A DNA stretch of 64,000 nt from an uncultured Kordiimonas sp. (GTDB taxonomy: Bacteria; Pseudomonadota; Alphaproteobacteria; Sphingomonadales; Kordiimonadaceae): the NCBI GenBank assembly GCA_947503625.1, contig CANNEK010000001.1:738152-802151 (forward strand), read 5' to 3'. The notes under the pieces were generated by a model. The model was not told where the DNA came from, did no database searches, and worked only from the letters and a program-made list of their open reading frames with translations. How positions within the stretch are numbered: the first letter of the stretch is position 1; each line of letters starts with the position of its first letter. The translations under genes were made by a program, and so were the position numbers. This document shows, piece after piece, positions 48,169 to 63,980 of the stretch.

Positions 48169-48534
48169 TTAACGGTTCAGGACAGAATCTTTGAGGCCCG
48201 CAGCGGCGCTCATAACCTTGGTAACTAGAGGGGCAGGCACGTCCAGATCGACAAGTGTATTGTTTAAATGAGACGCAACAGCATCAAAATGAGCGTCCGA
48301 CAACCCGTGATCGTCCACCAGACCTTTGTGAGACCGGCGCATATAAGCGTCCGCTCCCGCAGTATCGCCTTTGAAAATTATGGTAAAAAATGCCTTCTGT
48401 TTACGACTTTGCCCCTCCATGTCAGTACTCGCGAAAAAAGGGATCAATAGTGGATCAGCGAGAACTTTTTGGTAGAAGATATCCACAGCAGCATTTACTG
48501 CTGCCTCGCCGCCAATCTCGTCAAATATGGTCAT
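48169..48534 (-). CDS. Group I truncated haemoglobin
   Basis: A 121-aa 2-on-2 globin. The proximal heme His is in RRSHKGLVDDHGL, and the FDEIGG start and FYQKVLADPLLIPFF helix are typical. Such proteins bind O2 or NO and can protect against nitrosative stress. AAGG lies upstream of the ATG. It is a single gene, with its stop close to that of the DUF418 gene. Confidence 0.93.
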   Translation of the reverse strand: MTIFDEIGGEAAVNAAVDIFYQKVLADPLLIPFFASTDMEGQSRKQKAFFTIIFKGDTAGADAYMRRSHKGLVDDHGLSDAHFDAVASHLNNTLVDLDVPAPLVTKVMSAAAGLKDSVLNR

Positions 48535-61275: not shown

Positions 61276-61682
61276 TTCGGCTCTTTTGTTTTTAATGCAC
61301 ACACTATAAATGTTCATGGTTTGTTTTCAAGGTGCAATTCGGAAAACATGCCGTTTCGCGCAGGCTCAAGTGTCACGATTGACACCAAAAGCATCTGTTT
61401 TTTTTTGCCGAGCGCCCAGAGCTAACTGAGCGGTTCCTTTTCACCAAAACAAAATCCAAAGCATCAAGGCTGTCGCATCTTCGATGCAGTAGTCTATTTT
61501 TTAACCAGTGACTATTATTTAATCATTATTAGTACAGCTATATTGACCAAATTCTGGGCAATTATTTTTTTATCTATTAATTTCAATGATTTATTTTACT
61601 TTTGATTCTGGCACATGCCTTGCTGACTAGAGGGCGTTGATTGAAAAATTTATAAAAAATTCGATACTCTCTGGAGGAATGC
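61276..61682. other. 407-bp divergent intergenic region between uvrB and the porin gene
   Basis: No gene seen. The half nearest the porin is very AT-rich (long A/T runs from about 61490 to 61610), as is common for regulator and IHF binding upstream of sigma-54 promoters. It contains the sigma-54 match listed separately and the ribosome binding site GGAGGAATGC of the porin gene. Confidence 0.6.
61609..61624 (+). promoter_or_regulatory. Sigma-54 (RpoN) promoter upstream of the porin gene
   Basis: TGGCACATGCCTTGCT matches the -24/-12 consensus (TGGCAC-N5-TTGCT), with GG and GC exactly 10 nt apart. It lies 59 nt before the ATG, with AT-rich sequence upstream. Confidence 0.75.
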
Positions 61683-62396
61683 ATGAAAACCCCAAGCACA
61701 AGGCAAATCAAAAACAGTTTGCTCGGATGTGCGTCAGTATTCGGAATTGCGGCAATTTCGCCAGCAGCTTCCGCACAAGACGGCAGTGCGTTTACGTTTA
61801 GCGGAAACGCCGCACTCGTAACAGATTACCGCTTTCGCGGCATTTCACTTTCAAACAAAGACACCGCCATCCAGGCCGGTTTTAACGTGAACCATGAAAG
61901 CGGCTTTTATCTCAGCACCTGGGGGTCTTCGATACAGGATTATAACGGCGCAGAGCTCGAGCTGGACATCTACGGCGGTTACGCGACAACAATTGGTAAC
62001 CTGAGCACCAACGTTGGTTTCCTGGCCTACACATACCCCGGCGCTTCAGACAATTCAGATTACTATGAAGTATATGGGTCCGTTGGTGGCTCGCTTGACA
62101 CCGTGAGCTGGTCACTGGGGGCAAACTATGCCTTCGAACAAGACGGCACCGGCGACCAGGACAATATCTATCTCTATCTGAGCACCAGCACACCCATTGG
62201 CAAAACACCCTTCTACGTGACAGGCAATATTGCCTACGAGGACGGTGCATTTGGAACCGACAAATGGGATTGGCTACTGGGGCTCAATTATTCGTTCAAA
62301 CAACTCTCTCTCTCAGTCAATTACATCGACACAGCCAATTCACAAACCAGCTCTGGTAACGCTGGGGTGATTGGCATGCTGTCCGCAAGTTTTTAA
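61683..62396 (+). CDS. TorF-family putative porin
   Basis: A 237-aa outer-membrane protein. Signal peptide ends SAASAQD-like; the mature part is a small beta barrel with FSGNAALVTDYRFRGISLSNKDTAIQAGFNVNH, the signature of the TorF (TIGR02001) family, and ends with an aromatic residue (LSASF), as barrel proteins do. GGAGG precedes the ATG. It has a sigma-54 promoter match, so nitrogen control is plausible; the family is often found near nitrogen-control genes. A structured RNA candidate follows in its 3' region. Confidence 0.9.
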   Translation: MKTPSTRQIKNSLLGCASVFGIAAISPAASAQDGSAFTFSGNAALVTDYRFRGISLSNKDTAIQAGFNVNHESGFYLSTWGSSIQDYNGAELELDIYGGYATTIGNLSTNVGFLAYTYPGASDNSDYYEVYGSVGGSLDTVSWSLGANYAFEQDGTGDQDNIYLYLSTSTPIGKTPFYVTGNIAYEDGAFGTDKWDWLLGLNYSFKQLSLSVNYIDTANSQTSSGNAGVIGMLSASF

Positions 62397-62443
62397 GGAG
62401 GCGCTATACGAAACATAACGACTGATTTTAAGTATCTTCCCTG

Positions 62444-62612
62444 GCCCGACTTTCCCATTGTCGGGCTGCACAGATGGCAAACCGGCACCGAGGTTCTCTC
62501 TCCCCGACGTGCTGGCGAGCCAATAGCAAGCCCGCACTTCCCATGTTAAGGGCTGCACAGATGGCATGCTGACGTAACGGATCTCTCTCCCCAGACCGTC
62601 AGCATGCCTTTT
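62444..62612 (+). ncRNA. Tandem double-hairpin RNA candidate (two 87-nt-period units)
   Basis: Two related units. Each has hairpin A (GCCCGAC/GTCGGGC at 62444-62466; AGCCC/GGGCT at 62529-62554) with TTCCCAT in the loop, then the shared linker (GGGCTGCACAGATGGCA at 62463 and 62550), then hairpin B with the shared loop TCTCTCTCCCC (62495 and 62582). The B stems differ in sequence but both pair: CCGGCAC/GTGCTGG in unit 1 and a perfect 12-bp stem GGCATGCTGACG/CGTCAGCATGCC in unit 2, the last followed by TTTT. The pyrimidine loops could pair with ribosome binding sites. It may be a 3'-UTR-derived sRNA, or simply a terminator with a duplicated relative. Confidence 0.55.
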
Positions 62613-62699
62613 CCATGGCGCTCATTCCCCAAAACACCATTCTTCGATCGTGTTGGCCCATAAAAAAGCGAAAACCCTCTATAAATCCTCAACTATTGA

Positions 62700-63980
<1,281 letters not shown>

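Follow-up and report, generated by a model that had tools for sequence, protein, structure and literature searches.

Near the end of the window, by which we mean the whole stretch of 64,000 nucleotides analysed here, a gene for a TorF family putative porin (Gcw_chp) is followed on the same strand by an aspartate aminotransferase gene, and between the porin stop codon and the aminotransferase gene lies a structured element of four hairpins (Table 1). A first-pass annotation, made from the letters of the DNA, had described two hairpin-bearing units in direct repeat and proposed that they might be an undescribed family of small RNAs (sRNAs) released from the 3' region of the porin mRNA. In the following, we describe the architecture of this element, its occurrence in related genomes and its possible function.

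Table 1. Features of the porin–aminotransferase locus, with positions in the window
Feature	Position	Strand	Basis
Predicted sigma-54 (-24/-12) promoter TGGCAC-N5-TTGCT of the porin/RNA transcript	61609..61624	+	conservation in relatives
TorF family putative porin (Gcw_chp) ORF, host gene	61683..62396	+	PF09694 6.8e-49; TIGR02001 2.5e-35
Conserved leader AAGUAUCUUCCC of unit 1	62430..62441	+	10 of 12 columns invariant in 8 genomes
Hairpin A1: stem GCCCGAC/GUCGGGC, loop UUUCCCAUU	62444..62466	+	fold; helix A covariation
Hairpin B1: GGC(AAA)CCGGCAC ... GTGCTGG(CGA)GCC, loop with UUCUCUCUCCCC	62476..62521	+	repeat; covariation; covariance model R1
Hairpin A2: GCAAGCCC/GGGCTGC, CUUCCCAU inside; degenerate in own genome	62526..62556	+	folds
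Hairpin B2: 12-bp perfect stem, loop with AUCUCUCUCCCC, then TTTTCC	62563..62608	+	repeat; covariation; covariance model; z -5.48
Aspartate aminotransferase gene	62778..63980	+	best NCBIfam model below its cut-off

The repeat itself is real: two 43-nt copies, 77% identical, recur with a period of 87 nt, the 17-nt linker and the loop TCTCTCTCCCC read the same in both, the first stem is CCGGCAC/GTGCTGG with an additional outer GGC/GCC across a 3x3 internal loop, and the second is a perfect 12-bp inverted repeat (62563-62574/62597-62608). Its unit, however, is larger than had been claimed. The supposed linker GGGCTGCACAGATGGCA consists of the end of the 3' arm of a further hairpin (GGGC), a spacer and the start of the next stem (GGCA), and each tandem 87-nt unit therefore comprises two hairpins, A and B. 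The window copy thus has four hairpins in the order A-B-A-B and extends, with its leader, over positions 62430-62608. The A loops (UUUCCCAUU or CUCCCAU) carry UCCCAU, and the B loops (UUCUCUCUCCCC) carry UCUCUCUCCCC.

When the 3' untranslated region (3'UTR; 62397-62616) is folded as a whole, its z-score is -3.31. The B2 segment reaches -5.48 and hairpin A1 only -1.64, while the B1 segment, folded after its outer GGC had been cut off, stays within the ordinary range (-0.24). The earlier suggestion that the second stem and the TTTT behind it form a terminator is weak for the window copy, which has four T only; T-rich tails (TTTCTGTTTTTTT) follow the element in the relatives G006 and G014 (genomes are numbered, G000 being the window's own). 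A consensus scan of 61300-62850 returned no terminator-like site; as it allowed loops of at most 8, it was blind to B2.

By blastn (E<1e-4), the element is found in 8 of 59 genomes, its own included, all of one genus, with the next best match at E 0.012. All eight copies lie between the porin gene, or a remnant of it, and the aminotransferase gene, in sense orientation with both. Judged from folds, there are two A-B units in G000, G010, G015 and G016, and one in G003, G006, G014 and G018. Between G006 and G014, the element is 85% identical and the downstream noncoding stretch and the aminotransferase gene 81% each, which is little difference.

Comparative covariation is stronger evidence for structure than folding energy. 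Across the 12 B hairpins of the eight genomes, 94.2% of the 139 cells of helix B are paired, and pairing drops to 25-53% when the partner strand is slid as a control. Both sides of the helix have changed in 8 of 12 stem pairs, a number that 4 of 500 shuffles reach, and the covariation score (0.479, against 0.276 when shuffled) was as high in none of the 500; because the B units are related, these shuffle counts are not probabilities. Helix A, compared in the eight leading units, is 85% paired, with both sides changed in 5 of 8 pairs (18 of 500 shuffles) and a score attained by 0 of 500 shuffles, while its number of pair types is not above that of the shuffles (409 of 500). One row is off by a column in each alignment (G016_u1 for helix B, G014 for helix A), which lowers the pairing. 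The loop core CUCUCCCC is present in all 12 B units, these having been chosen by similarity. The covarying stems of both helices bear out the earlier view that the RNA structure is under selection.

A covariance model (R1) finds, in the own genome at E<1, the two known units only (B1, E=3.4e-9; B2, E=9.8e-13), and it does so by construction because both are training rows. When 196 genomes of the order were searched, only the eight training genomes gave strong matches (E<1e-6). The expected conservation in relatives was thus found, with the strong matches restricted to the genus and to the genomes that trained the model. At E<=0.5, 26 of the 196 genomes match, 18 of them beyond the training set at E 0.004-0.4. 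One of these weak matches, in G005, lies directly 3' of the G005 porin; another (E 0.004), in G019, a member of another genus of the family, lies away from the best porin match there and has the loop GGUCCUCCCCC (L044 1501-1543; G019:C6:219867-219909). The remaining 16 genomes are fewer than expected by chance from their E-values. With filters off, 25 loci gave 39 matches at E<=10. We rejected the matches found 3' of the porin in G001, G005, G011 and G012 (E 0.0003-0.02), since the other strand scores nearly as well and they therefore rest on the stem rather than on the loop.

The porin has five relatives in the named collection, four in assemblies labelled 'Alphaproteobacteria bacterium' and one in a Sphingobium assembly, at 41% identity. 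In the draft genome G015, the porin match (L084; G015:C125:32806-33509) runs over two frames, a split that reflects either a frameshift or an error of sequencing. The porin gene of the window contains CTCTCTCTCTCAGTC close to its 3' end (62304-62318, + strand), and this CU run is mostly retained in remnants of the gene in G003 and G014.

Upstream of the porin gene, the case for the predicted sigma-54 promoter lies in its conservation. We scanned 31 loci on the strand of the gene and found a strict match, one each, in 17 of the 19 loci where the aminotransferase gene was seen, and also in G001 and G008, where it was not; none of the ten other porin loci has one (five in which the aminotransferase was searched for and not found, and five distant paralogues for which it was not searched). 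In G013 and G017, the site reads TGGCACACCCCATGCA. Within the window alone, a similar pattern occurs twice against 0.76 expected, and 19 of 100 shuffles reach two, a count so near chance that it adds little weight of its own. The genome encodes rpoN once and Hfq once. About 100 nt upstream of the promoter at 61609, a stretch resembling TTAATCANTG or TTAATCANTGNTTATT recurs by eye, also in species without the RNA array, and may be an activator site. Upstream of its promoter, G000 has a palindrome that lacks conservation. Also by eye, several genomes have a promoter-like stretch between B2 and the start of the aminotransferase gene.

Beyond these eight genomes, hairpins with other C/U-rich loops lie downstream of the related porin in G005, G007, G008, G009, G011, G012 and G013, which do not have the loop of the element; their loop words, as read from folds, include CUUCCCUUCCCUUCCC, ACCUUCCC and CUCCCC, and the interval of G017 reads, by its sequence, much like that of G013. 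Summed over 21 of 26 such intervals, the porin strand has 83 copies of YUCCC and the opposite strand 3; the five left aside (G002, G025, G026 and the second copies in G013 and G017) all are without the aminotransferase gene, and the intervals of G004 and G008 were trimmed by eye. In 12 of the 21 intervals, the count is higher than in shuffled versions of the same interval (p<=0.05); it is 0 or 1 in G004, G021, G023 and G028.

Six of the eight genomes thus show the element in synteny with the porin gene and on its strand, and this arrangement, together with the remaining two, in which an orthologous porin is missing, supports the proposed origin in the 3' region of the porin mRNA. These two, G003 and G014, where the best porin matches are 26% identical, seem from their sequences to have lost the gene. 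Their loci keep the sigma-54 promoter, part of the 5' leader and the element, as well as about 110 and 55 nt, respectively, of the old porin 3' end (by eye), with some 350-390 nt from the presumed start to the last stem. Identities are 83-88% in the element, 78-81% in the aminotransferase gene and 51-81% in the downstream stretch, against 12-19% in the former porin coding region, large deletions counted in. In this region, the longest remaining open frames have 75 and 78 codons, but they are alike only near the end, so that a small protein is possible without being indicated. A tree of the aminotransferase (18 rows; G008 and G009 omitted) is unresolved around the two genomes and would agree with one or two losses of the porin. 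Retention of the element and its promoter after the apparent loss suggests a regulatory RNA in its own right. A more far-reaching version, which we put forward tentatively and consider possible rather than probable, is that a sigma-54-driven porin mRNA whose 3'UTR bears an anti-Shine-Dalgarno hairpin array has in some species shrunk to a regulatory RNA gene, its coding region having decayed in one or two losses while promoter and array were kept. If true, these closely related genomes would show an mRNA turning into a small-RNA gene.

What might such an RNA act on? The first-pass annotation had its C/U loops pair with ribosome-binding sites, which is plausible in view of known alphaproteobacterial sRNAs, although the signal at TonB-dependent receptor genes described below is also found where the element is absent (G021). 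In the eight genomes taken together, the pattern GGGGAGAG-N1-14-ATG has 148 matches and its reversed control 32; one of the 148 (in G018) is the element itself read backwards. Enrichment before ATG holds for any word like a Shine-Dalgarno sequence. Nor need a conserved GGGGAGAG site owe its conservation to the element, as is demonstrated by the L23 start site, which is identical in six genomes and was assigned to L23 in G000 only. Sites are clustered near the element in G003, G006 and G014.

Our survey of these sites covered 77 regions for 98 matches in G000, G003, G006 and G014, 70 of them with a frame of at least 35 codons, and omitted the L23 site in three genomes and other, mostly long-spaced, sites. 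Among the 19 regions of G000 are the starts of two TonB-dependent receptors with Plug domains (L130 and L146), where complementarity to loops B1 and B2, judged by eye, spans 12 and 13 nt. Orthologues in G003, G006 and G014 have a site in common at an SBF-family transporter, an MFS protein, a short-chain dehydrogenase and a hydrolase-like protein; none of the four genes is among the sites of G000. Three of these names were obtained by searching the N-terminal 90 residues of the G003 copies against Pfam, and 'hydrolase-like' is how we read the remaining one.

At receptor starts, GGGAG is found in 16 of 34 cases in G000, or 16 of 29 after dropping five with unsure starts, against 17 of 183; the corresponding counts are 12 of 21 against 6 of 80 in G008, 6 of 21 against 7 of 81 in G014, and 8 of 21 against 8 of 84 (p=0.003) in G021, which is without the array. 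The longer GGGGAG is enriched at receptor starts in G000 (9 of 34 against 6 of 183) and not significantly so in G014, which has the loop (3 of 21 against 3 of 81). These comparisons include 34 of 49 Plug matches in G000 and 21 each of 83, 30 and 56 in G008, G014 and G021, with gene starts taken from a simple ORF rule. Because array-free G021 shows a like enrichment, we set the receptors aside as proof of targeting. Pairing with the porin's own start was likewise discarded, its -11.1 kcal/mol being unexceptional against a background mean of -9.0. Within the window, GGGGAG lies upstream of one called gene. The strongest loop pairing predicted among the called genes of the window (-21.0 kcal/mol, far from the ATG) belongs to a small ORF that we read as globin-like (48169-48534, - strand), with GGGGAGAGG upstream of its start.

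Taken together, the comparison of genomes shows stems that covary and a loop core that is invariant, an unchanging strand and gene neighbourhood, conservation of a sigma-54-type promoter, and retention of both promoter and element in two species that have no orthologous porin. On balance, we lean towards an RpoN-controlled, structured RNA derived from the porin 3'UTR, whose C/U loops would pair with Shine-Dalgarno sequences. The sigma-54 promoter probably drives a porin mRNA that carries the hairpin array in its 3'UTR. This transcript may then be processed, perhaps by RNase E, or leave a decay-resistant tail, and the exposed UCUCUCUCCCC and UCCC loops would base-pair with G-rich Shine-Dalgarno sequences (GGGGAGAGA), blocking translation or triggering decay of several mRNAs, with each loop acting as one copy of a redundant seed. 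In this way, signals of the RpoN type could switch on the porin and simultaneously lower other transport or catabolic proteins. As the receptor-site signal also occurs in array-free G021, the anti-Shine-Dalgarno mechanism is our best inference and not a result.

The same hairpins could also act in cis, and only shield the 3' end of the porin mRNA from exonucleases or help to end transcription before the aminotransferase gene, with the loops playing a minor role. We consider this unlikely, if far from negligible: strong hairpins at a 3' end and the T-rich tails of G006 and G014 are what one would expect of such an element, yet such a role would neither preserve the same loop core on changing stems in 12 of 12 units nor need several loops, the element persists in two species without an orthologous porin, and the loop words vary by species yet remain C/U-rich. 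It also appears improbable that, rather than base-pairing with mRNAs, the loops sequester a partner, be it as an array for an RNA-binding protein or as a sponge for a G-rich small RNA. Many loop copies of one motif class, in numbers that vary by species, would suit this function, and sponge control of anti-Shine-Dalgarno sRNAs is described in Caulobacter (PMC12559287). Nevertheless, Shine-Dalgarno sequences, to which the motif is complementary, are a simpler partner.

Two further explanations receive little credit. That the pyrimidine-rich loops are YC sites of a Rho-utilisation region, serving Rho-dependent termination of the porin transcript, is very doubtful: the 3'UTR does have unpaired C/U-rich stretches, but C and G number only 66 and 51 over the 215 nt examined, and we know of no requirement of Rho for exact loop words on covarying stems. 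We hardly believe in an element of the minus strand, such as CsrA-type GGA loops on an antisense transcript, for although the loops' reverse complement reads GGGGAGAG and GGGAAG, the T-rich tails of the relatives, the sigma-54 promoter and the flanking genes all indicate the plus strand.

Returning to the porin-derived RNA with anti-Shine-Dalgarno loops, we asked how it relates to described families. The element has no Rfam match, neither at the gathering threshold in the whole window nor at E<=10 in 62380-62800; the region has two sub-threshold matches to other families, on the other strand. Nothing in this region thus reached a curated Rfam model above gathering, a result that would cover alpha-r14/NfeR1 only if Rfam 15 includes alpha-r14. 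No such element was found in the literature searched either, in agreement with its earlier description as undescribed. Elsewhere in the window is an ordinary glycine riboswitch (RF00504; 6872-6959, - strand, 68.8 bits), which, by our reading, apparently precedes glycine-cleavage genes of that strand. Cuckoo RNAs, to which the element bears some likeness, have the loop word CCUCCUCCC.

Alphaproteobacterial sRNAs that present identical C/U-rich anti-Shine-Dalgarno loops on variable stems are described as pairing with Shine-Dalgarno sequences, and the alpha-r14/NfeR1 RNAs of Rhizobiales (SmelA075, SmelA099) as consisting of three to four hairpins with an identical loop of this kind on differing stems (PMC10746234, PMC3927594). 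The element likewise has repeated hairpins, an invariant C/U loop and divergent stems. However, the alpha-r14/NfeR1 loops read CCUCCUCCC and those of the element CUCUCUCCCC or UUCCCAU, and the element differs in being located in a porin 3'UTR behind a sigma-54-type promoter. The CcsR1-4/cuckoo RNAs of Rhodobacter are reported to lie in tandem in the 3'UTR of the DUF1127 gene ccaF1, from which RNase E releases them, and to depend on an RpoHI/RpoHII promoter (PMC10253847, PMC8625941). Tandem arrangement and a position 3' of a protein gene are shared by the element, but its upstream gene is a PF09694/TIGR02001 porin and not a DUF1127 gene, its loop word is another, and its promoter is of the sigma-54 type rather than the RpoHI/RpoHII type given for CcsR. 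In Caulobacter, SisA-D (alpha-R8) are described as having a 10-mer anti-Shine-Dalgarno seed and as repressing, among others, mRNAs of TonB-dependent receptors (PMC12559287); by that description, they are separate sRNAs and not a 3'UTR hairpin array.

The related loci would offer a natural series of gene with RNA, RNA without gene, gene without RNA, and other loop words, and thereby a direct test of how 3'UTR-derived sRNAs evolve. Since loop word, host gene and, compared with CcsR, promoter type differ, we have not filed the element under either family: it is built like the alpha-r14/NfeR1 and CcsR/cuckoo RNAs but is not a member. If our reading is correct, the multi-seed anti-Shine-Dalgarno RNAs of Alphaproteobacteria would gain a porin-derived member linked to RpoN, and the expression of a porin would be tied to the silencing of other genes.
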